From Cytauxzoon felis (lineage: Eukaryota > Apicomplexa > Aconoidasida > Piroplasmida > Theileriidae), in the NCBI GenBank assembly GCA_020283715.1, contig JAIQCW010000136.1:1-46813 (forward strand): a stretch of 46,813 nucleotides of DNA, given 5' to 3'. Both the position numbers and the translations under genes were made by a program. This document shows positions 91 through 46,813 of this stretch, one piece after another. Within the stretch, counting starts at the first letter, position 1. Each line of letters opens with the position of its first letter. The notes below the pieces were generated by a model. That model saw only the letters and a program-made list of their open reading frames with translations, was not told where the DNA came from and ran no database searches.

Positions 91-240
91 GTAGTGGAAG
101 ACAGTGATTGGACCTCAAGTGGTACCCGCAGCTGATCTCAGGGAAGCGGAGGGGGAAATAAATAGAAGAGCTCTCTGCAAGAGAAGGAGAGTAGGATTGG
201 ACCTCGAGTGGAGAGCTGCCTGCAAGACGAAGAGAGGTGT
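91..240. repeat. Modular element copy 1 (in HRD1 intron 7)
   Basis: Reading on +: end motif (cctcaagtgg), then the CAGCTGATCTCAGGGAAGCG block ending in GAAGAGCTC, a CTCTCTGCAAGAG variant, a second end motif (cctcgagtgg) and a CTGCCTGCAAGACGAAGAG block. It lacks the CGATCTCCGGGAGTGG block within the window. Bases 1-90 upstream match a second sequence near 28,410. Confidence 0.85.
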
Positions 241-295
241 ATTGAGTCTCATATTGAGCGTATACTTTTGTAATTAAATCCTTCGTGTAACATAC

Positions 296-1344
296 ATGTA
301 GTGCATCGATGAGCATATAGACGGGTACATTGACGGGGTTATTGACAAAGAAGATGACCATGAATAGCTATAGGAATTTTAATGATATTATGAGAAGGAC
401 ATACAAGGAAAGAGAAGAGTGTAGTGATATCATGGAAGAGTTCAATGTAGAATAAAAGTGTGACTTTATTGGTAAGACCTGTATTGAATTTTTTTTTAAT
501 GAAATAAAAGAGTACAAATCTTACCATTTTCGTAATATAAATCCAATACGTTTATTATATATTTAAATGTACAAAAAATACATGTTTGTATCATTCCAAT
601 GAGCTAAATTGGTTAAGATATGATAATAGTAAAGACAAACCTCGAAAATGATCCAAATTGTAAATGTATCATCCGTATACAAATCCCTCCAGAAAATATT
701 CAACAGAAAACAATTTACCAACGATAGTACATAAATTAATGATAGAATCCTCAATAATTTTATAAAATCCGGTACTTCAACTTGAAACATCTATAAATAT
801 ATGAAGATGATATATAAGAGAAGGAAGGATTTGAATGTACAAATGATATCATACTGAAACTTACATGTGATAGACGTGTATATAACATAATATGGAAACA
901 TTTTAGCGCAACTAAAAATGTTAGGCATTTTACAAGCTCAAACATAATGACCTCCTTTCCGTTATATCTCGGCTTAGATAAAACCAGAAATAATACGGCA
1001 TCCATAACATAATTTCTAGCATTTTCAATTAGTTGCTGAAAGAAATATTAAATATTTATAATAAATTAATACAAACCTCCTTCTCCAATTGCGATAGTTG
1101 ACCTAAGAATATTATAATTGGTAGCTTACAGCTATATAAAAATAACATCAATCCATAGTTATATAAAATCTATAAATTAAAATGAATTCCTTACATATAA
1201 ACATACAGCTAAACATGTCTTATTCGATAGATATGATGTTACAAGTTCATAGAAGCCAGTCGCCGTAATTGAAGTGTGTCCCAGCGAACACGCCAATAAT
1301 AAATGGCTTATCAGTGCATAACGTTGTAAAATTTCATTAATCAT
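296..1344 (-). CDS. HRD1: HRD1/synoviolin-type ER membrane E3 ubiquitin ligase, N-terminal part (3' end off window)
   Basis: Seven small exons were read by hand: 1344-1195, 1169-1077, 1035-865, 790-641, 603-525, 478-405 and 367-296. The introns between them are 25-74 nt with GT/AG ends, and every junction keeps frame, giving about 263 residues. The protein is a run of hydrophobic membrane segments. Family-like stretches include FYELVTSYLSNKTCLAV, IIIFLGQLSQLEKE, FLVALKCFHIMLYTRLSH and NKVTLLFYIELF, which line up in order with the multi-span part of HRD1. In eukaryotes HRD1 ubiquitinates misfolded ER proteins for extraction by CDC48, which is encoded in this window. The RING domain is not visible and should lie beyond base 1. 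Intron 7 starts at 295 and contains a modular repeat copy. HRD1 identity is inferred from segment-by-segment resemblance; a related membrane E3 such as gp78/AMFR is less likely. Confidence 0.75.
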
Positions 1345-1543
1345 TGATTAATTAATTATATATAATAAAACATAAATAATATACATTAAATCTACCATTT
1401 ATTTAATTTCTAGACAACGACAACAACCCGTGGTATATGTGGATTACCATACTCGGATGAATCCAAAAAATTCAGCAATTTTCCACATAAATGATGTTAA
1501 TTATAAAATTTAAATATGTTATTCTAAATTTAATTACTTTTAA

Positions 1544-3061: not shown

Positions 3062-3238
3062 CTCTTTGCACATTTATAAATTAGTATACTATACTTAATC
3101 TTGTAATACTAAATCTACAGCTTGTTACCATAGATGGCTGATAATGTATAGAAATTGTTGAAGATGGTAGATTTATGTACATTAAATTAAAATACTGACA
3201 TCAAACACATGTAAACGGTATGAATATTTAAATGAACA

Positions 3239-3679
3239 ATGAATTTGATTATTAGATTAATAGTTTTAATGGGTTTTATAAACCTGATGGTGGAGGCGAA
3301 GATATCCACCACCATTGATTTAAATAGTGATAATGAAGTAGGATATACAAAGACGGATCCAAATTATGAAATACCAGCGATAAAATATGTTCCGAAACCT
3401 GAGTACGATTTAAATAAAATCGTAGATGGTAATATTAAAATATGGGAAAGTAGACGCGATGAGGTATTTGTTGTAGCCATAGCATATCCAATTGGAGGTG
3501 AGATTTTCTTCATCAACATTGGTTTATTACTGCCAAATAATAAGGTCGATAAGAGATATTACATAAAGCATAACAACACGTGGTCAAGAACTACCAATAG
3601 AAAATACTTTGAATCACTAAGATTTATATATCGATCATTAAAATTTATAGACGAAAGGATTTATGGAGGAGATGTGTGA
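3239..3679 (+). CDS. Small secreted protein, possibly one FAINT/DUF529-like domain
   Basis: A single-exon ORF of 146 residues. The first ~20 residues (ending ...LMVEA) look like a cleavable signal peptide: a short basic start, a hydrophobic core and small residues near the expected cut. The mature part is mixed-charge with aromatic residues (IWESRRDEVFVV, RYYIKHNNTW, YFESLRFIYRSLKF). This recalls the FAINT/DUF529 domain abundant in exported Theileria proteins, but I see no diagnostic motif, so this is a weak family guess. There is no membrane anchor or GPI-like tail, so it is likely secreted. It lies alone between the L1 gene and the unknown gene on the opposite strand. Confidence 0.5.
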   Translation: MNLIIRLIVLMGFINLMVEAKISTTIDLNSDNEVGYTKTDPNYEIPAIKYVPKPEYDLNKIVDGNIKIWESRRDEVFVVAIAYPIGGEIFFINIGLLLPNNKVDKRYYIKHNNTWSRTTNRKYFESLRFIYRSLKFIDERIYGGDV

Positions 3680-3807
3680 AGGAAGAGGCTAAAGAATATT
3701 TAATCTGAACTAGACATGTAATGAATATAGAGTTTAAATAATATTTAAAGTCATATCATCCGCTTGTTAAATACAATTGCAACACATCACCCTATGAAAT
3801 TATAATT

Positions 3808-5667
3808 TTATACAATTAATAAACATACACTCCTCAACTGTACATGACATTTATGATCATATTGTATTCCAATACGTTCAATCATACAAGTTATAGGCCC
3901 ATCTCTATCTACAACCTCCAGTGAATGACCCAAAAAATCAACCGATTCATCAATCATACCTATATATATATATATATGAATATAGCACAAACAAAGAAGA
4001 TGGATTAATCCACCTGAGGTTACAGCCTGTGCTCCCACTCGCCATGGTGGCCTCTTCTATTTACTTCTCCCTCCGCTTCCCTGAGATCAGCTACGGGTAA
4101 TACACTTGAGGTCTAGTACTAACTCCACTTGAGGTCATATCCATTACAACTTCATCATCGCCACGATCTCCGGGAGTGGCTATACTCTTTAGAGATAGGT
4201 AATTAGAAGAAGCCTCCATGGCGAGTGGAAGGGTAGATGATAATGATTGGACCTCAAGTAGATGCAATGGAAGGTTGCTGTAGAAGATAAGGTTGAAGAG
4301 CTTCGATATACAACGGCTAATTCACCACACATCTTAGGCAGAACATACCTATATCATTGGCGATATAATTTAATTTAAATGTGACTACATCTACACCTGC
4401 GACGAGCGTGGATTGGTGTAGTAACTGTGGTTTGAGTAATTCATGTTGTACAAATGTATAATTGGTGATATTTTGTGGGAATAGTTGCTTGAGGTATTGT
4501 GAATTGTGTTCGACATTATACCATTCTCGATGAAGGGTATCGATATTATTAAGATTGTTATTTAATTTATTCTGTGTTAAAGGTAGGAATTGTAGTGTGT
4601 GAGTATCGGTGACACCGATGGCATTTATTAGAGTGATGGGTATATCTATGAAATCACCTTCATTTAATTGTACAGGTGTAGTGTAATTACTGTAGTTGAA
4701 ATCATAATTACATGTGGTTGATGTATCGCGTATTAATGATACCACACGCTTAGTACCCTTTTTAAGTACATCAAATGTGAATTTATTAATGAATACAGAG
4801 CTATCCTTGTTGTAATTAAATGTATAACTGAAATTATTCCCATGTAAACTGCACTTGTATCCTATTTTAGCTCTAATATACAAATCTATTTTAACTGATT
4901 TTATAGAGGTCAAAATCGGGTTGAATAATAAATAACAGCTCTTATATTCCATATAATCCTTATAGACCTCAGTAAATCTACTTATTATTTCATCACATCT
5001 ATCCATTAAAATATAATTTACATTTTCATACCATAATTTATTTACATGTCTTATATAATTTATCTCAATGCCATTCAAATATTTCAGCATATATTCCATG
5101 AACCGCACACCTAGACCACTCCATCCGAAATGAAGGTTCATAGACTGGAAATTTTTAGAAAGAAGATACTTATCTCCTGTAGGAGATGAGAGAAATTTGT
5201 TCTTTTCAGAAGGAAGATTACCCTTTGTTGATGATGTAGAAACATCTTTCAGGGAACACCGAGTGGGTGTAACTACATTGTCAGAACTCCTATCACTTCC
5301 TTGATCTTTCTCTTCTATTAGGTAGAACTTTGTCTCGTCAGTGGGTCGGCTTTTGAGGTCGAGGGTGCCAGAGTGAGAGATGTTAGTTTCACTTCTAGTT
5401 TTGGTAATCTGAAGGTAAAGATAATAATACTTGTAATCAACGTACCCTCTTTTCCTTAGGGCTAAGGACAAAAGTACCAAAACCAAAGTAATTGTTATCG
5501 ATACTATCACTCCTGTTCATAACTTTATTATTTAGTTCATTTTTATCCAATGGGATTAATTTAGTATCACTGAATGATTTATTAGATTTAAGTGTTACTA
5601 GAAACGGGTCAAATTCATCAAATTTATGACCGTTCTCAGACTCGGTCGGTGAATCCTCATGAGTCAT
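3808..5667 (-). CDS. Unidentified three-exon gene
   Basis: Exons 5667-5446, 5408-4349 and 3959-3808 give 477 residues. The first junction (37-nt intron) joins ...PKEKR to ITKTRSETN in phase 0. The second joins ...NYIANDI to GMIDESVDF in phase 1 across a 389-nt intron that contains a modular element. The N-terminal ~150 residues are polar and Ser/Asp-rich and probably disordered. The rest is a folded, beta-rich region without membrane segments (for example VNKLWYENVNYILMDRCDE and HGNNFSYTFNYNKDSS). An alternative ATG at 5510 in another frame would add a hydrophobic leader, but the spliced model explains the overlap of frames better. The end may lie further on if GTATGT after LRS (near 3825) is a donor. 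I do not recognise the family. Confidence 0.55.
4000..4285. repeat. Modular element copy 3 (in intron of the 3808-5667 gene)
   Basis: Order on +: end motif, ACTCGCCATGGTGGCC, CTTCCCTGAGATCAGCTACGG, two end motifs, CGATCTCCGGGAGTGG, ACTCTTTAGAGATAGG, CCATGGCGAGTGGAAG and a final cctcaagt. It is nearly identical over about 130 bp to copy 6 at 9,800-9,955. Confidence 0.88.
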
Positions 5668-9667
<4,000 letters not shown>

Positions 9668-10059
9668 AATTAATTCAATCTACATTTATATATTATATAC
9701 AACAACTATTCAGCACAAATAAGTGTAGTTTATGCTCTACTTGACGTCCAATAGAACCATCTACCTGAAGTTACAACTACCGTTCCACTCGCCGTGGAGG
9801 CCTCTTCTATTTACTTCCCCTCCGCTTCCCTGAGATCAGCTACGGGTAATACACTTGAGGTCTAGTACTAACTCCACTTGAGGTCATATCCATTACAACT
9901 TCATCATCGCCACGATCTCCGGGAGTGGCTATACTCTTTAGAGATAGGTAATTGGAAGAGCCTCCACGGCGAGTGGGAAAAGAGGAGTTTGTAACTTCAT
10001 GTAGAGGAGTGACATGATTTACTTTATAAATCATAGTATATATTTTTTATTTATACAAT
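9668..10059. repeat. Modular element copy 6 filling the CDC48/Tpr-A intergenic gap (element about 9745-10010)
   Basis: This 392-bp gap between convergent genes is mostly one element: TACCTGAAGTTACA, TTCCACTCGCCGTGGAGGCC, CTTCCCTGAGATCAGCTACGG, two end motifs, CGATCTCCGGGAGTGG, CTCTTTAGAGATAGG, GCCTCCACGGCGAGTGG and TGTAACTTCATGTAGAGG. The left TTCCACTCGCCGTGGAGGCC and the right GCCTCCACGGCGAGTGG are inverted copies, so this is one of the clearest examples of the palindromic layout. Confidence 0.9.
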
Positions 10060-13000
10060 TTATATGTTTTGTGGTGGATCTAACAATGGTATTTGATTTA
10101 TTTTTAGAGTTGATGTGATTAAAAAAGGGCTCCACGGTGATTGAATGCGATATGTATATGGTTGTGTATATGTGTCTACATGTGTAAGTGTTTTAAAATA
10201 TCCATCACAATACAATGTTATTAACATGTGTAATGATAACATTAACAAAATATTGAATTGACTTATTGAACCTATAAATCCATCATGACTTTGTACAGGC
10301 CCTCCACCAAGTGCCGAGGATTCCATTAATTTTTGTGTAATATTTAGCATAATTCCAAAAAATGAAACGAGATATGTATTATCTTTAACACGTTTACCTA
10401 TCCATCCATCAGGTGTACGAATTGTAGATGTAAAGACATAGATACAGATTATGTAAATTAATCCTCCAAACCATACATAATGATAAAATAAACTATTCTT
10501 ATTCCATTTATTACTAGGGCCATAATCCACTTTTTCTAAATCTAATACAGCTAAAATAATACTAGGTATTGTAGATGCTAATAAAATACATAAATCAATC
10601 GTATCACCCCTATCAGGATCAATTAAAGAATATGGGGTAATTATGGGGCAAGCCGCATAAATTGTTCCAAGGGAGAATGATAGCATTAATATGGGGGACC
10701 AATGTAACAAATTATCAAAATAAATTAATTCTTTAAAAGTGCCCTGAACTGAGATAGCATTGAGTTTGGATGCAATTGCTGCATGCTGATTGGAATAATC
10801 ATCTAATTCATCAAGACCATTTGATAAACTAATCTTTTTTAATTCTGTATGTTCTTCCCACTTTTTCCCTTTACCATACCAATTGTTGGCGCCGTTGCTA
10901 AAGTATAACATTAATGGTTTACTACGAGATTTATCGCCGCCCTCATAGAATAGCCAGAAGGTAGTTACACCTGAGATAGTTTTGCCATCCTTTAAATTTT
11001 CAATACCATTAATCTCGTTTCCATTATATGTAATCTTTTCTATTGTTGAAAAATTTCCATAATGTTTGTATCCTCTAAAAATACTATTACTTAAGTCTTC
11101 GGAAATCACGGTGATTTCCGTATCACTAGTTTTATATTTAATGGTACTAGAACCAGTGCTCTTTGGACTATAATCCAATTTTAAAACGGGAGAGAATTTG
11201 GGAAAATTTTTATCACCAGATTCATAAAGTTCATTTTTAATTTCATAGAGTTTTTCTTCAAGTTTGCCTTCAATTTTACTTGGAAATATAGTACTATAAC
11301 CAACTTCTTCTGACACATCTTGCCATTTAGTACCAATTTCAATAGTAAAAGTACGCTTATACCATTTGGACATAGCATTAGGTTGATCAAACTCAGATAG
11401 ACATATCAAAATAGGCCTTTTAACGCCTTTAACCACAGTATCGTGATCTTCTACATAATATACAAAGACATATTGTCTATCACTTATACTTTTACCTTCA
11501 TCTAACTCGGATATACCTTTTATAGGTTCATTGTGTAATGTTATATAGTTTATATCATCAACACCAGCTTGATGCTTATAGCATTTAAAGACCCCATTCT
11601 CAGCTACTTCAGTAACATCAATTGTATCATTCTTATTGTCAGGACGTGCCTTATATTTAGAAGTCTGTTCAATCCTAATTTCATATTCTTTTTCTATGGT
11701 TCCTAATTGTTTTTTTAAATCACCAATTTTATCAAGCGGATTTTCTGGATCTATTTTGTTAAGGTCTGTATCACCTCCTTTCCACTCATTCCCTCTCTTA
11801 TAATACCTCCATGATGATTCCGCATGAACACATACGATTAATGGGAATTGATATTTGATATCACCATACTTATGATAATATACATAAACTGATTGAACCT
11901 CTTTATCATATTCTTTTATACCATTGAATGATATTCCGTAATATGCTATAGATCCCAATATGAAATTATTGCCATCACTGGATATATGACCAAATCTAAC
12001 ATAACCTGTCGGTATTTTATCACCACTACTAGCGTCGTGCAATCGTGTAACAATGATTTCACGATTATGACCTGATGAATACTTTCCAACGCCATGTTTA
12101 AGATCAATTCTACAAGCAACTCTGAGGTCATCAAGCTTTCTTTGAAGCCTTTTAATACCATCATTTACCAGATTATCTGGATTTAAGGAAGTGAGAGATT
12201 TGGATTCATACCATGTAGGTCCACGGTTATAATATTTTCTCTTATCATTATCCTCCTTAACACATATAATTAATGGAATTTGATCATCATTGTCTTCATT
12301 TTTATAGAAATATACATAAATTGCGTCTACATCAGTCTTTCGAGTGGTTAATTCACCCAATTCTATATCATTATACTTAATAACATCTAATTTAAATTTT
12401 GTGATATCATCAACTAATGTGTGATCCATTCTAACATAATCTTCTGGAACTATTTTGCCATCGCCATTTTTCCTTTCAACCTTAACTTGTAAACCTCTAG
12501 AGGTATAATAGCCTACATTATAATTATAGGGATGGCTAGGTTTAACACTAATATCAATTTCGACAGGTTTATAATCAGATGAAAGACGACTATATTTAGC
12601 AACATCACTATTCTCCTCTGATTTATCAGATTGATTCCACATCCATAATACAGAAGTAATAACAAGAGAGTACATGGAAAGACAATATTGTACAATAACT
12701 AAATAATAATCATATTCAGCCCAATTATATTTGTTAAATAACCAATGATATACTTTATGTAAAATAAATGTGGTAAAAGATGATACAGAGATGCCTGCAG
12801 CATAGATTATGGAATTGGTATTAACTGCAAAGGCGAAACAAGAAGAGAAGCCATTAGAGAGTGTCATTAATACAATACTCAAATATACATATCGAAAGCG
12901 TCGATAATCTTCACAAGATATAAACGCTATATAGGATATAACAGAACTAATAAGTGTTACCCACATGGAAATACATGAGACTTTCCTTTTGAAGCTCATG

Positions 13001-13257: not shown

Positions 13258-14638
13258 CTACTTACACCCTCACACAATATCCTATCACAACTCTATCATC
13301 CTCATCATATATACATACTAATGGTGTAACATCACATTTATATCCCCATAATTTACCTGATGAATTTTAAATTGAACTATTACATTCTACCAGCATTTGA
13401 CATGGATAAACGTATAGAAATATTGAAATAATCATCATGAATAGGTTCATAATTCTCATCATTAGATGATTTGATGTCTGGAACTTTATGATAAAATAGA
13501 TCTAGGGCAGTTGAAATCTCCAACAATATATTTTTTAAAATATAAATCCGCCTCTACAATAATTTACATATTGAATGAAATGGCAATTCATTCATTTAAT
13601 ATAGTAAACACTCAATGCATAATGCATATTTAAGTGGGTATGATGATATGGTGGGCAAATATTATAAGATAATTAAATATAATTACAATTATCCCAACGA
13701 ATACAAATGAGTAATATTTTATAGACAAATCGGAAAACATATAGACAGTCTTAAGAAGATTAATTATCTCCACATAATCACATATTGATGTTTACAATAT
13801 AGTACAAGATATGATGGAACAATAAAAAAGTGTAATTGATTATACCCTCCAACAAAATCAGGGGTTCCCATAATTTCCCCCAGAATCTAAAAATTGTAAA
13901 TTACACTATTGATGATATTTCAATTGATTATTTAAGTAAATTAGACAATAATCTTCTCATACCCACATTTAAATACTGCATGATTTGCATATTATGTTAA
14001 ATTCATTAAAATATTATACAGAAATCATTCATTCCATATGATTGCATATTAATATTTAAACTATTATACAGTAAACAGATTGGACTTTAAAACCTCAATA
14101 TACATTAAGCACGTATAATTGCGATATGTTGATAGTTGAAATGTTAGGTGTGGAGAGGAATATGGTACCTCAACTAACAATGAAGAAGAGTCACTTTAAA
14201 TATAACATATCTCCATTTTATCATTCATTCAATACCATTCTATAGATATTTGAAGCTTTACTCAGGTGGGAGAGAGATAAGTCCTTACAATACATATACC
14301 ATGATGGGAGAGATTTTTTCATACTATTAGAGAGTAACATCCTAAAGGTAGGCATTAGTGTAATAATTAACCATTAGGTAATAGTATAATGTTTTTCCTC
14401 ATTACATTTGATGATGATATATTACATGTTGGATTAAAAGTGTATTTATCCTTCATTATATTCGAGTGATTATAAGTAGATACACAAAAGCGTAGAAACT
14501 TCATCTTTCAATTAAATTTATGAAACTTCAAATAATAAATTTATAAAATTACATGAAATGAAGGATACTTTAAGTTATAAAATTATATTATTAACAATTA
14601 ATTTGAATTTAAACTAATTAGAGTTACACCCTCGTTGT
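13258..14638. repeat. Duplicated noncoding block upstream of Tpr copy A
   Basis: No gene is visible. Its start (just past the ATG) and its end (AATTAGAGTTACACCCTCG, near 14618) recur in the same order at 39165-40530, together with anchors such as TAATTAACCATTAGGTAATA (14364) and TGAAGGATACTTTAAGTTAT (14559). It is therefore the 5' part of a ~4.1-4.6 kb segmental duplication that includes the adjacent Tpr-related gene. Bases 14639-14827 show nothing recognisable. Confidence 0.85.
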
Positions 14639-15110: not shown

Positions 15111-15146
15111 TGGATAGGTGTACTAAAGTAGATTATGTTTGATAAA

Positions 15147-32132: not shown

Positions 32133-35100
32133 ATGCCATCTGGTATATATGAGGATCATGTCTATTTGAGGGAGCTGTTGAGGAAATATTCTACTCCAGT
32201 TATATTTTATAAAGTTTACCCAAGTGTAGAAGACTTTACAGGATCACTTCAGCTAGAGTCATACGGTGGAGATGTTCTGTTTAAGGATTACAGCGAGCTT
32301 GAGTATAAATATGAGAGTATAGGTGATGAATTGTTCAAAATTTTGACAAAATATGAATCAGATGAAGATTTAAATTTAAATATCAAGTTAACAAAATGGT
32401 TTTATCATTGGTCTATAGAATTATCTTATCTAGTCAAATTGGATATCTTCAAGCGCTACAGTATACCCTTAGACATACATGGTATACTTATATTCATAAA
32501 CGCGCACGATGATTTTCAACTGTTAACTGAGTTTAAAGACAAACGAATCATTCTCGTTATAATTTCTGATGAACAAGATAATTCGCACATACCAGAAAAG
32601 CTCTCAACAATCTTTACTGAACTTCCAAAATACATTATACTCTATGCACGGGATGGAAAAGAAGGAGATGAAGATAAGGTATATGGCCACGAGGATAATG
32701 TCACTCCGTCATCGTCTTCACCTCTACCTCCCTCTATGACTACAATCTCGGTGTCATCATCGGTTTCTGGATGGCTTAGACGAATAGTTTCCTTTGTGAG
32801 GGAGGTGATTGCTTCTTCCTCGAAATCATCGCAAAATTTTAAAAAATATGGGGATAAATCAGCATACAAGGGTTTAAAGAACGATGTTGAGATGATAAAT
32901 AGTGTAGCTCTGCTAATGTATGAGGAGCTGATATTGGGTGCGAGTACAACTATACAGATAATGAGTCGCATGTCAGTGGACCATGAAATACAAGCATTGG
33001 CATGTGGATACCATGGGTTGTTGAAGTTGAATGACGATAGCGTAGATTTGGATGACGTTATAATGTATTTTGACAATGCTTCATCATTATATTTAAAGTA
33101 TGATATGATATGGGATTGTATTTTCTACTCTTTAATAAGTTGTATTTTAAATAGGACTGATGGTATCCAAAAATTCGGTACACGATGTTCATTAATCCCC
33201 ATAAAAGATAAATTTGATAATTGTAGGGCGGCCCTATGTATAGAATTATGCGCCCTACATTGTGATCTAACTAGGAAGAAAATGTTCCAATTAGTAATGG
33301 CTGGTCATTTATATAACCAGTCTGGTTTATTAAAATTATCAAAGAGGTGTTATTTATTATCATTACCGATTTATATAAACAGCCAATGGTATATACCATT
33401 AGAACATTTATATGGTATATTAAGTAGATTTGATCCATATTATTCTATATATGCATTAAATATACTATGTAACACCACAGAATTTAATTTCATCAATGAT
33501 AATACCCCACATTGTGTAACAGATGATTATAATTTGGCATCTGAGCATGAAATATCATATTTGAAACGTTTAATGAAATTATCATTTATGGAAGATATAA
33601 AAGATGAATTTAAAATACATGGTATTACATGTAAATATAATAATTACCCATCATTATTTATTAAATTATATGATTTACCCCATATTTCAAATGATATTTT
33701 AACCCCATTTCCAGTTAGGATACCATTGATATATCTGAAGAATAAGGAGGGTGTACCGGGTAAGAATTGTTATTTGACATCATTGGATAATATAGATAGA
33801 TATGGTATAGATATATTTAAAAATGATAATATATATGATGACTATAAATTAAAAGAGGAATCTATATATAATTTATTATGTAATGATGATAAATTTGTAA
33901 AATGTAGGGTTTTTTATGATTCTATAATAAAAAATATTAAAAGGCGTGATGTTACCCCATCATTAATAAGAAGTTTTAATATTAATACGTTTTTAATATT
34001 ACAATTAGATTTAATTAATCCATTACATATCCCCATACATTGTGATGATTATTATTTATTAATTAAAGATGTTGAAAATGATGAATTATTTTGGATACAA
34101 TGTGATATATTAGATTACCCTACATGTAATATTATTGATCATTTATATCTTGTAGAATTACAACGACGTATTATTTTTATTAAATTCAAATTAAAAAAAG
34201 TCGGGTAAATTTATTATTAATGGTATTAGATGGAAATTATTTAATTGTGTATACTTTTGGACCCCATTATATTTATCAGGCGATTACACAACACCTGGAT
34301 ATACTATATGTAACAAGGATGGTCAATTATTAGATGAATTCATTAACAATCGAAGAGCCAATAATGGACTGACGTTTATTATTACCGATCGTGAACCAAA
34401 GATTAAATTCAAATTCATTGATGGAGGTGGAGGAACAGACACCAAAGGTTCTTCAACTAGGCATAGTGGGTTTGCACCTGATTATACAACCTTATCTTAC
34501 ACTTCACCTGAGGTCAATCCAACTCTGTTCGTCCTGCCGTCAGCTCTTCCAATTACCTATCCCTGAAGGGTAATGCCACTCCCGGAGATCGTGGTGAGGG
34601 TAGTGATGGATCATCCATCATGGGAATGATGGAAGATGGTGCTAAGGATGTATTGGATTGGACCTCGAGTGGAATACCCGAGAGCGATCCACGGGAGCTT
34701 GAGGGGGAAGTAAATAGAGAAGCTGACGGCAGGACCTCAAGTGGAGAAGCTCCATGCAATGGAAAAGATGGATCTCAGGTGGATACTGCCTGCAAGACAA
34801 AGGATGGTGGATCTCTACATGAAGGTAAGAATCCATCACTTCCATCATTTAGATTTTTTGTAAAGAGGGGAGAGTATTTGGAATATGATAAGATGGTGAT
34901 GAATCATGTATCATGGGATGATTTATTATATGATAGGGTAAATAAAGATGATGATTCTGATATATTGGATGTTGTAGATATAATATCTGGTGAGTATTTA
35001 TTTACTCAACTTTGTATAATAAATATTGGGCAATTTACATTGAATTCATTGTCATTAAGATTGAAATGTATAGGTAATTTCAAATATCCTTGTTATCCTA

Positions 35101-35987: not shown

Positions 35988-36422
35988 TATTCTCTCATTT
36001 AAATATTTATCACATACATTCTAATACAAACGACCTCTCTTCCACTCGCCGTGGAGGCTTCTCCACCTGAGGTCAGTCCTGCCGTCAGCTCTTCCAATTA
36101 CCTATCTCTAAAGAGTAGAGCCACTCCCGGAGATCGTGGTGAAGAATCCGAGACGATCAATGGGAGTCGAGGTGAGGTAAATAAGAAGGCCACCACGGCG
36201 AGTGGAACAGATGGAGATAGATCTCATATATTATACAAGACCTACGATTGACGAATTTAGTATAACTGACAAATATTATAAACACATTACAGAATTATAC
36301 GTGACGCTGTTTTTAGCAAGACTTTTATTTATGTTACATTTTGTTATCTTTTGATACTCTTTCAATTGTCATTTAAGAAATATCATCATTACTCTCTTCA
36401 ACTTTACTTCCATCACCTTATA
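35988..36422. repeat. Convergent intergenic gap with modular element copy 17 (about 36025-36215)
   Basis: TTCCACTCGCCGTGGAGGC, CCACCTGAGGTC, CTGCCGTCAGCTC, inverted core, GACGATCAATGGGAGTCGAGG and GGCCACCACGGCGAGTGGAA. The remaining bases to 36422 are AT-rich, with nothing recognisable. It lies just outside the left edge of the second Tpr-related block. Confidence 0.87.
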
Positions 36423-39164
36423 CTATGATGCTTCAGGATAGAAGAACGATTCCGACTCGAGTGGCTGTTGTATATGTAAGGGTGGTGTGATTAAAAGAGG
36501 GGTCCATGGTGAATGAATATGATATGTATATAGAGGTTGTGTATATCCACCTACATTTAAGACTGAATCAAAATATCCATCACAAAATAAAGTTATTAAT
36601 AGACGTAGTGATAACATTAATAATATAGAAAATTGAATGATAGTCCCTATATATCCATCATAACTTTGCAAAGCTACTCCGCCAAATGCTGTGGACTCCA
36701 TCAATTTCTGAGTAGTGTTGAGAGTGACACCGAATAATCCAACAAGGAAAGGATTATTCTTTACACCTCTACCTATAACTCCATCAGGTGAACGAATCGT
36801 ACTAGTTAAAGCACATAAACAGATAATATAAGGCATAGCAACTATCCACATACAATTATAAAACCATCTATCGTTATTCCATTTACCACTTGGACCCATA
36901 AAACCGATTTTAATGAGGTCTAAGTCTAGGATAGCTAGTCCAAGATTAGGAATCGTGGAAATAATTACAATACATAAATCGATTCTGTTAGCTCTCTCTG
37001 GATCAATTAAAGAATATGGGGTACTTATGGGGTATGCCACACAAATTATACCAAGTGGAAATGTAAGCATTAATATGGGGGACCAATGATAGAGGTTATC
37101 AAAGTAAATTAATTCTTTTAAAGATCCTTGTCTAATATACTTTGGAAGTACCTCAGCAAGACCGGTGACGTTACTATTTGGGTCCCCATTAACTTTATCA
37201 GTTGTATCCCATGGATCACCTCTACGATACCACGTATGACTAGTACTCTTATAAACGCATATTAATAATGGTCTATTTATGATAGGACTTCCCTTGGAAT
37301 CCTTCTCATAATATACCCATAATTTATTACTAGTATTAATAGTTATACCTGTTTTAGGTAATCCTTTAAGTTCTAGCCCGTTATTATTAATGGCAGCATT
37401 AGTGATATTGCCATTAGTGGATTTGTATTCATATGCTAAATATCCTGAGGGTACATTAGCAGTTACCTTAGAGACAGTGATTTGATTGCCAACAGTAACA
37501 TATGTAATAGGATTAGTGTCGTCCTTAGGAATATAATCTAATCTCACAGCAAATGATGGCTTGGGATAGCCTGTATCGTTACCAACAAGGTCATCATTTA
37601 TTTCAGTGAGTTTTGCTTCGAATTTTTCAATTTTAATTGGGTCGTAACTACTGCAATTTTCAGTTAGAATAGCCCATGTATATCCACCACCGGATTTTTT
37701 CACACGTTTGTACCACATGTTTCCAGTATTAGGTCCATCACTCTTGGATAAACATATTAGCAATGGTTTCTCATATTTATTATCATGTTTGGCAAAATAT
37801 ACGTAGAAAGCTTCGCCAACTTTGAGTGAATATACATCACTATCTAAGGCAGTGATGCCAAGTATGACTTGCTTGTGTACAGTCATACGATTAATTTGCC
37901 TTTCACCAGTTCCAGAGAAATAATGCCTATAACCTTTATATTTATCGTTATTGGCCAAACTTTGAATATTAATTTTATCTGCATCGCCATTACCTGGACG
38001 TGCTGTGTATGAACCAGTATTCTGCTCGAACTTAACCTCATATTTTTCTTTGAGTTTCTCAAGTTTAGTTGTAAGTTCACCGGCAACACCTTGTTGGTCA
38101 GGACCTTTGCCTATTTTGGGGTTATCTACTTCAGTCCATCTATTCCCCCTTTGATAATAAGTGTGGGATGAACTTTTACTCACACAGACAACCAGAGGAA
38201 ATTCATGATCTTTATCATTATTACCTACTCTATAGTATACATAGACTGCTGTAACATTTTCCGTAAAATGTATTCCATTTAGTTGAACATCTCTGTGTAT
38301 AACAGAGCTCAAGTTAAATGGTTTATGTCCGTCACGTTTATGATCGAATCTCTCATATCCTGTTGGTACATAATTAGTATTAGCCTCTTTACTAACAGTA
38401 ATTTTCATAGATCCATAATAACCATTTCCCAAATTTGTATCAGTTTGACTCAAGTCAATTATAACATCTGTACCAATGCATGGACAAAAGGTACCCCTAG
38501 GAACATCCACTTTACTCTCATTTTCAATTTCATTGTATTGATCAAGTATCCATAATGTACGGGCAACTGAAAGAAATAGCATTGTAAAGGAATAATGTAA
38601 GATGACTAAATTATAATCATAATCATCCCAATGATATAAATTATAGAAATGTTTATATATCTTATGTAGAAAGAAGGCAACAAGTGAGGATACAGAGATA
38701 CCTGCGGCATATATTATGGAATTGGTATTAACTGCAAAGGCGAAACATGATGAGAAGCCATTAGAGAGTGTCATTAAAATAATACTCAAATATACATATC
38801 GAAACCGTCGATAATCTTCACAAGATATAAACGCTATATAAGATATAACAGAACTAATAAGTGTTACCCACATGGAAATACATGAGACTTTCCTTTTGAA
38901 GCTCATGTTATGAATACTTTTACTATCGAATGATACATCAATAAATACTGTTAAGGCAAAGGCAAGAAAAGCTGAAATCAAATTAGATAAATCCATAGGA
39001 TAATGGAATTTATATACAAACAATGATGCCGCAGATGGAGGTAAATGGAACCTATTAATTGCATAACTACAACATGTGGTTGCTATATAATAAGGACATA
39101 ATGTAACAAATCCATTTAAGAACATACATATTATACCCAACAAACCATCCATACTATATTTCAT
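36423..39164 (-). CDS. Tpr-related multi-span membrane protein with three inserted extra-membrane domains (copy B)
   Basis: A 913-residue intronless ORF. Its first ~157 residues are nearly identical to copy A (10060-13257), then similarity drops sharply after NSIIYAAGISVSS. The centre has three domain repeats (cores VYVYYRVGNNDKDHEFPLV, FYVYFAKHDNKYEKPLLIC and LWVYYEKDSKG...RPLLIC, each with a YY/WY-x-RG-x-x-W turn), one fewer than copy A. The C-terminal membrane half (WSPILMLTFPLGIICVAYP, STPYSLIDPERANRIDLC, MESTAFGGVALQSYDG) again matches. The abrupt change of identity suggests gene conversion or recent duplication of the N-terminal part. The inserted domains probably face away from the cytosol, but topology is not proven by sequence. 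Confidence 0.7.
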   Translation of the reverse strand: MKYSMDGLLGIICMFLNGFVTLCPYYIATTCCSYAINRFHLPPSAASLFVYKFHYPMDLSNLISAFLAFALTVFIDVSFDSKSIHNMSFKRKVSCISMWVTLISSVISYIAFISCEDYRRFRYVYLSIILMTLSNGFSSCFAFAVNTNSIIYAAGISVSSLVAFFLHKIYKHFYNLYHWDDYDYNLVILHYSFTMLFLSVARTLWILDQYNEIENESKVDVPRGTFCPCIGTDVIIDLSQTDTNLGNGYYGSMKITVSKEANTNYVPTGYERFDHKRDGHKPFNLSSVIHRDVQLNGIHFTENVTAVYVYYRVGNNDKDHEFPLVVCVSKSSSHTYYQRGNRWTEVDNPKIGKGPDQQGVAGELTTKLEKLKEKYEVKFEQNTGSYTARPGNGDADKINIQSLANNDKYKGYRHYFSGTGERQINRMTVHKQVILGITALDSDVYSLKVGEAFYVYFAKHDNKYEKPLLICLSKSDGPNTGNMWYKRVKKSGGGYTWAILTENCSSYDPIKIEKFEAKLTEINDDLVGNDTGYPKPSFAVRLDYIPKDDTNPITYVTVGNQITVSKVTANVPSGYLAYEYKSTNGNITNAAINNNGLELKGLPKTGITINTSNKLWVYYEKDSKGSPIINRPLLICVYKSTSHTWYRRGDPWDTTDKVNGDPNSNVTGLAEVLPKYIRQGSLKELIYFDNLYHWSPILMLTFPLGIICVAYPISTPYSLIDPERANRIDLCIVIISTIPNLGLAILDLDLIKIGFMGPSGKWNNDRWFYNCMWIVAMPYIICLCALTSTIRSPDGVIGRGVKNNPFLVGLFGVTLNTTQKLMESTAFGGVALQSYDGYIGTIIQFSILLMLSLRLLITLFCDGYFDSVLNVGGYTQPLYTYHIHSPWTPLLITPPLHIQQPLESESFFYPEAS

Positions 39165-40530
39165 CTACTTACACCCTCACACAATATCCTATCACAACTC
39201 TATCATCCTCATCATATATACATACTAATGGTGTAACATCACATTTATATCCCCATAATCTACCTGATGAATTTTAAATTGAACTATTACATTCTACCAG
39301 CATTTGATATGGATATACCCATTATATATTTGAAATTATCATCATCCAATCAATCATAATTCTCATCATTAGATCATTTAATGTCTGGAACTTTATGGTA
39401 ACAATAGATCTAGGGTAGTTGAAATCTCCAACAAGATATTTTTTTTAAAATATAAATCAGCCTCTACAATAATTTACATCTTGTATAAAAAGGGGGTAGT
39501 TATCCCATACAATTTATATAACTATACTTCATTAATCAATGATGATTATAGAATGAGAATTGAAACTCAGTATGAAGCATATAATTATAATTGTTACATT
39601 TAATATACATCTGTATTAATTTATAGACATGGATAAAAAACGTAAAGAAATATGAGTAAGATTAATCAAACCTCATATAATGATATAATGATGTTTAGAA
39701 TATAGTACAAGGTATCATGGAACAAAAAAAATGTAATTTATGAAACCCTCCAATAAAATGAGGAGTTCCCATAATTCTCCCCATAATTTAAAAATTATAA
39801 TTTACAATATTGATGGTATGGTAAATGATTATTTACATAGGCTATACAATATTCTATTAATAACATCATCTTTAAATATTGCATTACATATATATTGTAA
39901 TTAAATCATTACAATGTAGTACAGTAACTATTCATTCCATATGATTGTAGATTTAATTAATGAAGTATCTATCATGGTATATAATTAATAAAATCATTTA
40001 ATGAGATGAGTGTAAATATTATTGCGATATTGTGAGTAGTAAGTAATGAGTATGAAGAGAGGTACAATACCTCATGTGACATTTGTGATTATCCAATTTA
40101 ATTCACTTCATTATACTTTCCATCATCAATAACTAATAGTTGAGTTGATAACAAACTAAGCATATTCGTTCCTCAATATATCCCTGTATGAAGAGGAGAG
40201 TTTGTTTCATACTAGTGTGAGAGTAAGATCCAAATGACACATGCTCAGTGTAATAATTAACCATTAGGTAATAGTAAAATGTTATTCCACATCACATTTG
40301 ATGATAATAGACCGAATGATTTATTATATGTGTATTTATCCTTCATTATATGTGAATGGTTACAGGTACATACATAAATGTATAAAAACTTCATTTTTCA
40401 ATTAAATATATGAAACTTCAAATGATAAATTTATAAAATTACTTGAAATGAAGGATACTTTAAGTTATAAAATTTTTATTACCTCAAATTAATTTGATTT
40501 TAAACTAATTAGAGTTACACCCTCGTTGTC
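39165..40530. repeat. Duplicated noncoding block upstream of Tpr copy B
   Basis: Matches 13258-14638 in the same order and orientation: identical ~90 bp next to the ATG (CTACTTACACCCTCACACAA), TAATTAACCATTAGGTAATA at 40253, TGAAGGATACTTTAAGTTAT at 40447 and AATTAGAGTTACACCCTCG at 40508. Between these anchors the copies differ by indels and substitutions. There is no ORF or RNA gene. Confidence 0.85.
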
Positions 40531-41361
40531 TTACATACACATCACGACTGAATCATTACAAAGCTCTTCAATATTGATAAATTCAATATTTACTTCTCAT
40601 TATTTCTCAATTTACCTATGAATAATGGATGGTATAACGTGCTTATGATTAATGTTGATAAAATGCTGGAGTCCAATGAGAGTTACATGATGAAACTACA
40701 TATTTAGATTAACTATAGATTTAATAAACCAGATACAACCTAGTTATAACAATTCCTGTAGACAGTTCTCCACCTGAGGTCTTTCCACTCGGCGTGGCGC
40801 CTCTTCTATTTATTTCCCCCTCCGCTTCCATGAGATCAGCTGCGGGTTTTCCACTTGAGGTCCAACCCTATAATATTTTATTCATTAATTGAATTAAATA
40901 CAATAATTATCTTCTCTCAATCATTTATAACTGAAGTTTAATATTATAATAATTTATTAAAGTATATATATTTAGTATTATTACTATGTTATCTAGGTAC
41001 TATGATTCAATTCATGTTAGTAGTATTATAGTTTATATATTATATTAATTATTTATATAACTACATTTATACAATCCCACTATCATCATTCATCCTTCAA
41101 TCATATTATTATACATGTACATATTATATTAAAGGAGAAATCATAAGTAGACACTAGTATTATAGTGTAAATAGTGTTTTTATCCCGACATTTCTGTGGT
41201 GTCAAAGTATCTATTTATAGTGATTGTCATCCGTCACGATCTCCGGGAGTGGCTTTACTCTTTAGAGATAGGTAATTGGAAGATGCCTCCACGGCGAGTG
41301 GAAGAGAGTTGGATTGTACCTCAGGTGGAGAGCTGTCTGCAGGACCGACCTCAACTATAGA
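40531..41361. repeat. Modular element copy 18, split into two halves by ~360 bp
   Basis: The left half, about 40760-40870, has CCACCTGAGGTC, CACTCGGCGTGGCGCC, CTTCCATGAGATCAGCTGCGG and CCACTTGAGGTCC. The right half, about 41229-41350, has CGATCTCCGGGAGTGG, CTCTTTAGAGATAGG, GCCTCCACGGCGAGTGG, cctcaggtgg and GCTGTCTGCAGGACC. The halves are in the order of a normal element, but AT-rich DNA (40871-41228) without a gene lies between. 40531-40759 shows nothing. Confidence 0.8.
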
Positions 41362-44300
41362 TTATATTATAGAGGTTATGAAATGTGAATAATGAATGAG
41401 ATTATAATTTGGTTTTTTATTATTATATGTATTGATATATTTAATGGTATTGGATTTATTGTTATTATTGATGAGTGGTACTTGTAATTTATATAAAAAT
41501 TTATTATTTTTTTTCAAGATACTGGTAATAAGAGTACAATTATTAAAGAGTATATGTAATGTGAATATATTTTTAAAATCAAGATTGATTAATAATGAGA
41601 AATCATAAATCCAATATTTATTAGGTGATAAATAAAAACATAACCATATAATATAACATAATAATTTTATACATCCATCATTATATAATTGATAATAAGA
41701 ATTAGAATTTTTAATAAAAAATTTATTTAATATCCAATTACATAAATCTAATGGTATTTTATGTATAATTGTTATAAATTTATATAATTCTAATGTATTA
41801 TTAAATTGTATTGTAGATTTTTTTAATAATATTATAAATATATCTAATATTTTTAAACAACGTGATAATTGTTTATTATTATAATTTATATTTCCATTAT
41901 TTATTGATATTAATTTACATAAATTTATTGATGTTCTTGTTAATTTATTTACATTTAATAATTCACATAATTCTGATTTTATTAAACATTTATAATATGG
42001 TTCTACTGTAAATTTATCATCATTTAATATATCACAATCTATTATTCTATTTAAATCTGTTAATTCCATTGGATTAATTGCATCTAATTCACATTCTGGT
42101 AAATATAAACGACGTAATTCTAATAAATTGACATCTTTATCTATATGAAGTAAATTTTCTAATTGATTTGATATTACACTAGATTCTCCATCGTTTGAAA
42201 TCAAGTCATGATGTGCATCTCCTCCACCACTTCCCTCTTCATCACCTCCTTCACTTCTTCCTTCATGTCCATCACTTCCTCCTTCCTTTGCATCATTAAT
42301 AGTTTGTTGAAATCTTCTATAACCTTCATTTAAAGTGTTAGATTCGGATAGTTCATGGTAAATTTTCGGTCGAAGACTAGAGTATTGAAGATTGAATTGA
42401 TGATAAACAATAGTACGATATTTTTCAATTAAAGAGACAATATTATCAAAAATTTTCCCATCATTATCAAGATAATTAAAAAAATCAAGACAAATAGCAG
42501 GTAATTGTGTATCATTAACATCAGGATTAATTTCAAAATTATTTAAAGCTTCAATAAAACAATATTCAGTAACATTAGATCCATTAAAAAAATTCCAATT
42601 ATACCATAAACAACTCCATTTAATAGAAGAAATACACTACATAAATTAAAATAAATCAATATATATATAAACAAACCTTATTAATAATATCAATATTCTT
42701 CCTCCAATCTCTACAAGATTCTAACCGAGCAAATTCATAACGTAATAATTTCAATAATAACCTATCCCTAAGCTTACCATCAACAACCTCATTTTTGTAA
42801 ATCAATTCACACTAAATATAATTATCATATTAAAACCAAACTTACAATATCTCTATGCCTTTCCTCTAAACTCGGCTGGATCGTAGCAGAATATGTATTA
42901 CAATTATATATAGTAATGTCTACACCAATTACGACTATATACTCACGACTATATATATGTTATTAAATATATAATTATAAATTAAATCGAATTTATGTCA
43001 ACCTGAGGTTAGATCCACCTCTCCTTGTCTTGCAGACAGCTCTTCTAATTACATATCTCTAAAGAGTAGAGCCACTCCCAGAGATCATGGCGATGTTGAA
43101 GGTATAGATGGATATGGATTGAAGAATAGTAATGGACCTCAAGTGGAGAACCCGAGAACGATCTATGGGAGTTTGAGGGGGAGGTAATTAGAAGAGCTGT
43201 CTGCAAGACGAAGGAAAGGTGGATGTAACCTCGGGTGGACTACCCGAGAGCGATCTATGGGAGCTTGAGGGGGAAGTAAATAGAAGAGCTGTCTGCAAGA
43301 CGACCTCAGGTGTAATTTCATGGAATTGTGGTAGAGATGGGTTGTATTCACCTAGACACATCTATCATTGGTATTAACATTCCAGTTGACAACTGATGAC
43401 TGGTAAACTAATTCATTACTTTAAGTTCAACATACGTGATATTTTGTTGATCATTTTGTAAAGATTCATTTGTAAGGATAATTTCTTTCGATTGTGTATC
43501 ATTGATGTATTTTGCTGATAATTTCAATGGGTGTTGTTTATTTTTATAGGTGAGATCGGGTGCTCGATAGACTTCTCTGAGTGATTTTGAGGTTGATTCA
43601 ATACGATAATTAGTTTTATTATTGTAGTTGTAATATAGATCAAATGTATCATACTTTACAAGGGTGACTGTTGGTAACTTAAAAAGGTGATGTAAATGTA
43701 GATTTTTTGGGATGTCATTGGAATCCAAATTGATAACATCATTGAAATCATTTGTAACTTCTTGGAAATCTTTAATAATTGATATATTCGATTCAGTTTT
43801 TAATGGAGTGCGTACATTTCTACAATAATTATAAATTACATCGTTATAATCCCCTTTCTTTTTGTATCCATAGTGAAATTTATTATTTACATGGACTGTA
43901 TTATCATATTTATAATAACCATCTGTAAATAATTTGAATATGTTCTCATTATCCTTTACTATTAATGAGTCTTTGGACTCTTTCAAGTGACCTATTGGAT
44001 AATAGTATTTGAAAATATAAAAATCATCAACTTACATAAATAAATGAATTCATTTGATTGAATATAATTGCGATTTTTAATTAATTGAATAACATTTGTT
44101 AAATTTACTTCATCTAGTATTATATTTTGTACATTTAAATTAGATTCATCTTTATGTGTAATTTCTAGACAGGTATGAAGACAATTTGCTACAGTATTTA
44201 TTACATTATCATAATTCAAATCATTTATTTTCAAATCTTTAATAGTAAGTGTAGGATTTATTAATGTTTTTGTGTCTAGAGCTATATTTCGAAAATCATT

Positions 44301-44381
44301 CCTTAGACGCATATAATTATCCCTACAATCTACACCTACTCTCTCCTTTAATACCTTTTCACAAAATTTATACCTATCCAT
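41362..44381 (-). CDS. Unidentified five-exon gene
   Basis: Exons 44381-44036, 43991-43420, 42941-42846, 42811-42677 and 42636-41362 keep frame throughout and give 807 residues. The model joins two neighbouring coding stretches across a 478-nt intron (43419-42942) that contains a modular element. That join is inferred: without it the 3' half has no ATG, and exon 2 would run to a nearby stop at 43408. The protein is rich in Asn, Ile and Leu, largely helical in appearance, without signal peptide or membrane spans. It has a Gly/Ser/Glu-rich low-complexity segment around residues 520-555. Readable stretches include LLLKLLRYEFARLESCRDWR and LPAICLDFFNYLDNDGKIFD. I do not recognise the family. Confidence 0.5.
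42990..43325. repeat. Modular element copy 19 (putative intron of the 41362-44381 gene)
   Basis: CAACCTGAGGTTA, CTTGCAGACAGCTC, inverted core (CTCTAAAGAG, GCCACTCCCAGAGATC), end motif, then twice the unit GAACGATCTATGGGAGTTTG or GAGCGATCTATGGGAGCTTG followed by GAAGAGCTGTCTGCAAGACG, and a final cctcaggtg. The internal tandem duplication of ~95 bp is unique to this copy. Confidence 0.88.
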
Positions 44382-44961
44382 CTAGGAGAAGAAGTGTTGT
44401 ACGATGTGTTTTATAACTACAGATCCATATGGTGGGCTGAAGGAAGGTATATAAACTATAAGCTATAATATATAATATACATAAATCTAATAATAATATT
44501 CACTCAATAATTGTACTATATGTAACATTTTCCATTGAAGTCCAATCAACTAACTTCTTATAGAGTTCCACCTCTTACACTTGCTGTTCCACCTGAAGCC
44601 AATAACGTCTGTTCCTCTTGCAGAGAGCTCTTCTATTTACCTCTCCCTCCGCTTCCCTGAGATCAGCTACGGGTTATCCACTTGAGGTCCAATCCACTCT
44701 CCTATCCACTTAATGTTACAACCTTATCTTCCACTCTCCGTGGCGGCCTTCTTGTTTACGTCACCTCGACTCCCATATATCGTCTCGGATTCTTCGCCAC
44801 GATCTCCGGGAGTGGTTATACTCTTTAGAGATAGGTAATTGGAAGAAGGCTCCACGCCGAGTGGAACAGTAGATGACAGTGATTGGAATTCGGATGGAAT
44901 CGACTCCAAGCGAATTTAATTTGAAGATTTTAATTAGGGGGGTACTCTGCATTATTTATAT
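44382..44961. repeat. Intergenic gap with modular element copy 20 (about 44535-44905)
   Basis: CACCTGAAGCC, CTTGCAGAGAGCTC, CTTCCCTGAGATCAGCTACGG, end motifs, CCACTCTCCGTGGCGGCC, CCTCGACTCCCATATATCG, CGATCTCCGGGAGTGG, CTCTTTAGAGATAGG and GGCTCCACGCCGAGTGG. It occupies most of the gap between two minus-strand genes. The left 150 bp are AT-rich and presumably promoter for the gene starting at 44381. Confidence 0.87.
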
Positions 44962-46545
44962 TTAATAGCATCTATTAGCTTTCCAAAGGCGATATCTATT
45001 GGTTTTTTTCCATAGATAGTACATATCTACGATATCTTTGACGGATTTATTTGGTATATCTCTTTGAATTTCATGGAATTCTTTACCATATTTGAAGATA
45101 CCTAATTCGAATAGTACAATTTCTTTTGGTCCCCAAAGATCTATAACTTGTGGTTGTCTATGTTCGGATTTGAGTATACGGAATGAGATATTGAAATTTA
45201 CATCTAATTTTGAGCATTCATTCAATCCACCATAATTTATTATACTTTCTACATCCTTTTTAGGTGGTTGAACTTTAATATTTAATTCATCACTACCCAT
45301 AGTACATAATGGTTTACCACAATAAAATCTCTCACTCAAGTCTAAATATTCTTCAATTGCTGTCATTTTCATACGTGAATATTCATTTGAAAATTTATCA
45401 TACGTTGTATTCTCTTTAATATTTTCATCTTTTTGTTGTGTCATTTCCCTTTCTGCATCCTTCATTGACATTTCAATCGCTAATTTAAGTTCAGCCTCGT
45501 ATGAACTCTCAGCCTGTCTTGTAAATTTTTTATTCAAAAAGAAAGTCGGGTCATCTTTGTTAATCTTCTCTCTCTTTTTGTAAACTTTCTTCTCTTTAGT
45601 TATACTTGAAGATGTTTTTGATTTAACCTTTTTCTTTGAAGATGATTGAACTTGTGGGATTTTTATATGAGAGTGGGGATTTTTAGTTGATGGGGAAGTA
45701 GGGATTTTTATCGATTGATGTGAGGAGCTTAGTGATTCGAAGGGTTGAGGTTGAATGATGATGGATGGGATATAACTATCTTCTTTTAATTTGTCAAATG
45801 TACTTTCGATTTTAATTGAGGTAAGAGATTTATTAGTAGAAGTTGAAGAACGAGATGATGGAGGAATGGTAACAAGTCCAATACTAGAAGGTTGGATAGA
45901 TGGTGAATGATGAGATGTACTCGTTATAGTTTCACATTTCACCTTCACATCAGCTATTGGAGTATTAAATTCTTTAGAAGGAAACTTCGTCTTTATTTTA
46001 GATACCTCTAAGTAACTTTTTGGAATCTCAGCAGTAGTGTCTTCAGGCGTTATCTTCCTCCCTCGACCAAATTTACTCTTCGCTTTAATCTTATCATAGA
46101 GATCAACAAATTTAATCTCTACATCATCATTCAAATAATCTACATTTCCATTAACCCCGAAAGTAGTCACTTTAATATTATTATATTGAGAATCTTCAAT
46201 AGAATTATCAGGCAAAACCCCATTATTTCCATGTGGTTTTTTAATATTATTGGCCCCAGAATCGAGAGAAAAATCCCCACTTTTCAAATTAAAATTATCT
46301 TCGTTACCCGACAATTCCTTTTTTTCCTTTTACTTATAGGAAACTTCTTTTTAGGAGGCCTACCCCTGGGTCTTTTTGATACAGGAGGTTTCAACGTATT
46401 GGAGGCAGGTTCTACAGAGGCTACTGTAACTTCATTTCCAATATTAGATTCATTGACATCGAGAGATAATTCGACTTTATGTTCATCAATATGGTCTGGG
46501 GTCTTTCCAGTCACCATGGCATCCTCTCTAACTGAGGTCGTCTTG
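44962..46545 (-). CDS. AT-hook and SANT-domain nuclear protein (5' end uncertain, apparent frameshift)
   Basis: Reading from the 5' side, a short coding stretch carries an AT-hook (SKRPRGRPPKKKF) and a basic SKRKK tail. At an A7 run (46325-46319) the frame must change to continue as LSGNEDNFNLKSGDFS through a long Ser/Lys-rich disordered region, a coiled segment (LKLAIEMSMKDAEREMTQQ) and a C-terminal SANT domain: LWGPKEIVLFELGIFKYGKE, FHEIQRDIPNKSV, then DIVDMYYLWKKT and a stop at 44962. That SANT type, ending YYxWKKT, is typical of MTA/RERE/MIER-like corepressor proteins, which recruit deacetylases; the function here is inferred. The first exon border near 46545 coincides with a degenerate element end (cctcagttag), so upstream exons may lie beyond the window. 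Confidence 0.7.
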
Positions 46546-46813
46546 CAGACAGCTTCTCTATTTATCTCCCCTTCCAGCTCCCGTAGATCGCTTCCAGGTA
46601 GTTCAATTGATGAACTTTCATTCAACTCGTCCTGGTGGTCATTATAAAGTTGTCCCTCAGATTCTCTGAGATCTGATGCAGGTAGTAGACTTGGGGTCCT
46701 TACATTGTCTTGCAGACGGCCTTCCATATTTACTTCCCCCTCCGCTTCCCTGAGATCAGCTGCGGGTTCCACCTGAGGTCCAGTACTACTTTTCATTCCA
46801 TCTCCATCTTCGC
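46535..46813. repeat. Modular element copy 21 (runs off the right end)
   Basis: CTTGCAGACAGCTTCTC, TCCCGTAGATCGC, a region with TCAGATTCTCTGAGATCTG, CTTGCAGACGGCC, CTTCCCTGAGATCAGCTGCGG, CCACCTGAGGTCC and the start of a further block at the window end. It is likely part of the 5' intron of the AT-hook/SANT gene; open frames through it are not real exons. Confidence 0.82.

Follow-up and report, generated by a model that had tools for sequence, protein, structure and literature searches.

The contig JAIQCW010000136.1 of the piroplasm Cytauxzoon felis (assembly GCA_020283715.1), which we analysed over its full 46,813 nt (the window), raises the question of what carries the same short palindromic blocks again and again through and between its genes. 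The original prediction, made from the letters of the window, described a non-autonomous mobile element family that invades or creates introns. We find copies in three settings: introns, DNA beyond the long open frames, and the long open frames themselves, where copies lie in frame and nearly always in one orientation and one frame. The family probably consists of high-copy palindromic, modular, non-autonomous selfish repeats of the nuclear genome of C. felis, tolerated in introns and in frame inside proteins.

The genome was scanned over 8,623,106 bases in 181 contigs (the window is C79:1-46813). The core block CCACGATCTCCGGGAGTGGC gave 2,819 matches in 8.62 Mb with at most two mismatches, about equally split between the strands (1,425 forward and 1,394 reverse), and its reversed control gave none. 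Confinement of the copies to this locus, which had been named as the finding that would speak against a mobile family, is thereby contradicted. For the element scan we used twelve module patterns on a sample of 246.8 kb (the window, 120 kb of contig C4 and 80 kb of contig C9; ~3 % of the genome), an element being a cluster of at least three modules. Module matches numbered 139 in the window, 256 in C4 and 265 in C9, compared with 0, 10 and 2 in the reversed sequences. They formed 109 clusters with a median module span of 170 nt, 41 in C4, 45 in C9 and 23 in the window, where about 21 loci had been predicted. This is a density of about one per 2-3 kb, and the elements make up 9.2 % of the window, 5.8 % of the C4 part and 9.6 % of the C9 part. 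Provided that the sample is typical, extrapolation gives ~3,800 elements genome-wide (3,127-4,594).

No description of the family was found in the literature searched, whose coverage mostly excludes subscription papers and preprints, and the claim that no such piroplasm element has been described agrees with that search. Apicomplexa are described as mobile-element-poor, and a survey of 64 apicomplexan genomes, in the part cited here, gives no transposable elements for C. felis and discards candidates for miniature inverted-repeat transposable elements (MITEs) as likely false positives (PMC9141347). A family occupying ~6-10 % of the sampled sequence would, if mobile, overturn this picture of C. 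felis.

The elements had been thought to have no coding capacity. On the contrary, a single frame antisense to the core is open through them (for a median of 234 nt, compared with 39-117 nt in the other frames), and copies lie in it within long open frames. Twelve of 107 clusters were open across together with their flanks. One of these, an intron copy in CDC48 at 8595, was dropped; ten of the remaining eleven share sense and frame. Two in-frame copies are found in a 1246-residue protein with ABC1 kinase and beta-lactamase domains and three in a 1307-residue protein, and one each in a FAINT protein and a 734-residue protein, neither of which formed clusters. With these last two included, the total is 13 in-frame copies in 246.8 kb, which extrapolates to roughly 450 genome-wide (242-777). 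In the 1307-residue frame, beside element modules, C9 also carries two 178-nt stretches that are 100 % identical (28746-28923 and 30414-30591).

A genome search with a 76-residue frame-0 peptide of the element yielded 175 matches (150 of 4,323 candidates scored). Among the best 150 of the 175, 90 lay in stop-free frames of at least 300 residues, representing 76 distinct frames. The opposite-strand peptide yielded 151 matches; by reading, two of those listed lay in such frames, including that of the query itself. Purine block and core share a frame in all three exonic copies; outside exons they do so in nine of 26, as expected by chance. In a CAF1B-like frame, residues 16-51 align to residues 227-262 of CAF1B (PDB 7y5k) and residues 426-502 to 305-380; 374 residues stand where CAF1B has 42, and the element accounts for only part of them. 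In-frame placement of copies in long open frames is well supported.

Evidence at the transcript level comes from the surface antigen cf76, a vaccine candidate. When residues 480-1246 of an element-bearing frame were used as the query (8,000 candidates scored), two proteins were found, both of them C. felis cf76. The gene is encoded at C114:6540-8708, with 100 % identity over 723 of 723 residues (published position contig00195:6540-8711; PMC6310948), and has two elements, by eye near residues 180-270 and 575-665. This identity, beside which a FAINT-domain protein was found, identifies the assembly as C. felis. It is reported as single-exon, and its full open reading frame and three fragments were amplified from cDNA of DNase-treated RNA (PMC3748084). 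Because the full frame was cloned from cDNA, both elements are retained in the mRNA, and their translation is supported. Most in-frame copies in other genes are presumably translated as well. In the first element, whose bounds were set by eye, 43 of 101 columns (29 gapped) are different between two cf76 alleles; elsewhere it is 18 of 629, and 13 of the 18 lie before the first element. This pattern fits a fast turnover by exchange between copies, although two alleles do not separate exchange from ordinary divergence.

In sera from cats that survived, reactivity was strong to full-length cf76 and to the C-terminal fragment, and weaker to the N-terminal and central fragments (PMC3748084). The C-terminal fragment contains the second element, and the other two contain parts of the first. 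Since the sera were weaker on fragments with parts of the first element, the tentative reading given at the end, which includes a shared antigenic peptide, becomes slightly less probable. In a vaccine study that followed, cf76 proved less immunogenic (PMC10058880). We regard a shared antigenic element peptide as a possibility, not as a result. By eye, module sequence of the element is present in two of the primers published for cf76 fragments (PMC3748084), and the published in situ probe, from the C-terminal region, contains the second element. The serology fragments and the probe may therefore recognise other parasite products and not cf76 alone.

The elements of the window, located by module scan unless stated otherwise, are as follows.

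26-212, no strand: terminal part of a long-form element with the 205-nt type of interior, by the left contig edge; modules E' P' S' B' E' at 111-212, interior by eye
2534-2723, plus: element after the GT donor at 2432 of a ribosomal protein L1-like gene (Pfam PF00687 on the first exon), probably intronic
4009-4262, plus: core-class element bounded on either side by end motifs
7335-7640, plus: CDC48 intron in the D1 Walker A codons (GPPG/SGKT) with an element, modules 7356-7565; from the restored protein
8542-8804, plus: CDC48 intron in the D2 Walker A codons (GPPG/CGKT) with an element, modules 8595-8722; from the restored protein
9784-9953, plus: element 3' of CDC48
14828-15093, minus: element with end motifs at both ends, core reversed
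16264-16686, minus: ISWI intron with an element, modules 16313-16654; once joined, its exons match ISWI in the SANT region (for example PDB 8v4y chain W)
17069-17432, minus: ISWI intron with an element, modules 17114-17365; joint at the edge of the homologue alignment
20074-20481, minus: element array, exonic in type, in frame in a 333-residue open frame (19851-20849, minus) without Pfam domain
21214-21321, no strand: partial element
22891-23121, no strand: element separating two related open frames
25570-25749, plus: element 3' of a Fumble (pantothenate kinase-like) open frame
28126-28619, no strand: long-form element, arm sets 28126-28253 and 28502-28619 around the 205-nt interior; module scan and alignment
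30049-30432, plus: GRP94 intron with an element, modules 30106-30330; joint compared with Babesia GRP94 by eye
34534-34745, minus: element whose usual frame is open, at the beginning of a 491-residue open frame; exonic or intronic
36041-36206, minus: element
40769-41302, plus: element pair (40769-40862 and 41234-41302) around a shared interior at ~40884-41191
43135-43298, minus: element
44618-44865, plus: core-class element
46724-46780, plus: element near the right window edge

Recurrent blocks are found in both orientations throughout the window, as had been described. In the core class the order is end motif, arm, spacer, purine block, end motif, variable spacer, core, hairpin, inverted arm and inverted end motif. 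The predicted order holds for this class; in a second, long class, arms and purine block flank a shared 205-nt interior in place of the core (nine copies aligned). Shuffling of blocks is borne out by the arms: three sequence types can stand in for one another at a single position 3' of the core, where 69 of 72 copies have one of the arms listed. Of the 109 clusters, 13 have the end motif in inverted form at the two ends, and the motif also occurs inside elements. The module spans are mostly 60-400 nt, and the long form is near 500 nt.

Several interiors recur. The 205-nt interior is present at window 28274-28481 and at eight loci of the sample. An interior of ~310 nt is common to window 40884-41191, between two element halves, C4 57044-57359 and C9 5351-5660. 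Besides these interiors, a dispersed repeat of ~150 nt occurs at C4 32070-32216, 7807-7957 and 102471-102624, at C9 51138-51295 and at other places.

The predicted non-autonomous mobile family is upheld as far as dispersed, apparently non-autonomous palindromic repeats are concerned; that they have moved is what we infer. Their hairpin structure is conserved, and the covarying stems and stable folds described below count among the evidence for this reading. We think that the family would have spread through some form of transposition and that modules would be swapped between copies via recombination or gene conversion. Most copies in frame would be translated as inserts of tens to more than 100 residues, each a tolerated flexible stretch of the protein. 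Selection would purge exonic copies in other frames, and introns would accept any frame.

A number of observations weigh against this reading, some of them concerning mobility. Among the 109 elements, 13 have outer end motifs to the left and right, and these show no target-site duplication, with no consistent offset above shuffled pairing. An empty counterpart of an occupied locus was likewise not found. The genome has no match to MULE, DDE_3 or rve (PF10551, PF13358 and PF00665; controls positive), hAT, CACTA and Helitron not having been searched, and its only RVT_1 match is a frame that also holds a telomerase domain. Others concern the frame. The eleventh open cluster, C9:44275, is ambiguous, being open in both strands. 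A TAA is usually present in the opposite-strand frame, which builds part of the frame preference into the sequence, and the frame-0 matches listed favour the best-scoring copies. Frame 0 is free of stops across the span of 16 of the 41 unassigned copies, and likewise in the CDC48 intron copy at 8595, so that openness alone is no proof of an exon. The cDNA support for in-frame copies is limited to cf76.

Because the transposases searched for were not found and the only reverse transcriptase match is telomerase, we favour copying by an unrecognised enzyme or a hairpin-based mechanism. The same telomerase match led us to reject a retroelement or short interspersed nuclear element. The piggyBac domain (PF13843) was not found in the genome either, which is uninformative since its control gave no match. 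As an empty site we tried a duplication within the window (10.1-14.6 kb versus 36.5-40.5 kb), which ends short of the neighbouring elements. It is a segmental duplication of a large open frame (10111-14638 versus 36483-40529), the aligned parts of which are 73-80 % identical. A further duplication, outside the masked elements, is a 323-nt stretch at C4 48809-49131 that is inverted and 99 % identical at 22099-22421, and thus recent.

Classical MITEs, cut and pasted by the transposase of a DNA transposon acting on inverted ends, are the alternative that fares best, though we hold it to be unlikely. The elements were called MITE-like on account of their size and inverted arms, and these stand; the interiors that differ between shared arms and the lack of an encoded enzyme fit as well. 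The two checks that had been proposed, for target-site duplications and for an autonomous partner, speak against it: the 13 elements with outer end motifs showed no duplication, and among the families searched MULE, DDE_3 and rve gave no match in the genome. The end motif also occurs internally, and no Class II genes are given for the 64 apicomplexan genomes in the cited part of the survey (PMC9141347).

Half of the copies had been placed in introns. Of the 23 window elements, five lie in GT-AG introns with the expected protein restored at the joints (two in CDC48, two in ISWI and one in GRP94), one more probably does, one is exonic in type and 16 are without assignment, which leaves 'half' unproven. 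Excision of the CDC48 introns restores GPPGSGKT in D1 and GPPGCGKT in D2. The weakest joint is that of the ISWI intron 17432-17069, at the edge of the homologue alignment. Relative to the gene, three of the five elements have frame 0 in sense and two are opposite. The element introns are 263-423 nt long, 81-159 nt of each lying outside the module span, and four introns of CDC48, ISWI and the L1 gene that carry no element measure 34, 37, 48 and 69 nt. The non-module part is thus longer than an element-free intron, a weak point since module spans understate the element. None of the 120 GRP94 matches listed named Theileria, which is no evidence of absence. An automatic intron call by hexamer score gave 31 of 107 and 23 of 107 elements compared with 82 of 400 and 99 of 400 controls at two thresholds; these results were inconsistent and the call was not used.

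Donor-like sequences lead into elements more often than expected. An element follows within 80 nt in eight of 40 GTATGTYTA donors (random positions, 3.8 %) and in 16 of 224 GTATGT sites, compared with three of 227 for the scrambled TGTATG. The sequence GTATGTTTACAYGAA occurs at 10 places genome-wide, and all five in the sample run into an element. These GTATGTTTACAYGAA sites, the five checked introns and the two CDC48 introns, which have their first 19 bases in common and occupy the same Walker A codon site in D1 and D2, would suit introners, that is, elements that bring their own splice sites and make new introns, as the prediction had allowed. We consider this improbable and reject it as a general explanation. 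The distance from donor to element varies between 21 and 70 nt (within the 80-nt limit searched), many copies lie instead in open frames, and every checked intron has its 81-159 nt beyond the module span, although this last point counts for little. We read the elements as having been inserted into pre-existing introns, with the small GTATGTTTACAYGAA donor-sharing group as an exception.

The elements might also be functional host elements (chromatin, replication or RNA-processing signals) kept by site-wise selection. Besides the density of about one per 2-3 kb, this idea draws, as does our own reading, on the hairpin 3' of the core. Its stem exists in four versions (CTCT/AGAG, CCGT/ACGG, CCCT/AGGG and CCCA/TGGG) and is fully paired in 69 of 72 copies, which indicates covariation. 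The copies came from the window, C4, C9 and C1-C3, and are related, yet were counted as independent; paired stem cells amounted to 99.0 %, compared with 87.2 % with shuffled partners (best of 2,000 shuffles, 91.7 %). The outer stem of the core is nearly invariant and thus uninformative. Three sequences were folded, and each was more stable than 100 of 100 shuffles: as RNA, the CDC48 intron 7335-7640 (z=-7.33) and the ISWI intron 17069-17432 (z=-5.10), and as single-stranded DNA the long element 28126-28619 (z=-5.80). Modules are nevertheless shuffled and interchanged, copies lie within unrelated proteins, and an Rfam search of the window gave no match at gathering score, so that site-wise selection seems to us very unlikely. 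A known structured RNA family was discarded likewise, the only candidate in 16200-17500 being sR18 at chance level (E 0.67).

That the in-frame copies are introns open by chance is hardly credible: the open unassigned copies and the open verified intron copy allow it, but both cf76 copies are kept in cDNA (PMC3748084), the matches listed fall in 76 distinct long frames, and two and three open copies share the 1246- and 1307-residue frames.

We thus retain selfish palindromic repeats as the best explanation, and several known systems resemble them in part. Like MITEs, the C. felis elements are short and non-autonomous, with inverted arms and varying interiors; unlike MITEs, they show no target-site duplication and no transposase in the families searched. 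Foldback elements have long inverted arms built of sub-repeats and are modular, as is the C. felis element. The coding palindromes of nematomorphs are also inverted repeats within coding sequence, but they are mitochondrial (PMC6649704). The introner elements of Amoebophrya, likewise an alveolate parasite, are intron repeats with inverted repeats and predicted hairpins; there, inverted repeats connect one end of the intron with the other, and direct repeats extend over the junctions of exon and intron (PMC7789003). In C. felis, by contrast, the splice sites lie outside the modules at variable distances, and many copies are in open frames.

By behaviour, the nearest analogue are the Rickettsia palindromic elements (RPE), of which we know no counterpart in a nuclear genome. 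RPE are bacterial and ~150 bp long, nearly half of them lie in open reading frames with a conserved peptide, and 44 integrations are reported in R. conorii (PMC10969869). The likeness lies in short palindromic repeats of several families, many of them in frame in unrelated genes with a conserved peptide (PMC10969869). The C. felis element differs in being nuclear and modular, in its thousands of copies and in its presence in spliceosomal introns as well; the two are likened by behaviour and not by sequence. Tentatively, it may be a nuclear eukaryotic counterpart of RPE that escapes selection via introns and a single stop-free frame and spreads without transposase or reverse transcriptase. If so, hundreds of parasite proteins would have gained a shared, fast-evolving and possibly antigenic peptide, which may mislead work on antigens and serve the parasite as an immune decoy. 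The family makes it testable how a small eukaryotic genome tolerates insertions within proteins. We do not claim membership in RPE. The C. felis element appears to work like them: it is palindromic, short and repeated in unrelated genes, and it lies in frame in coding genes with a constant peptide that, beyond cf76, is presumably translated.

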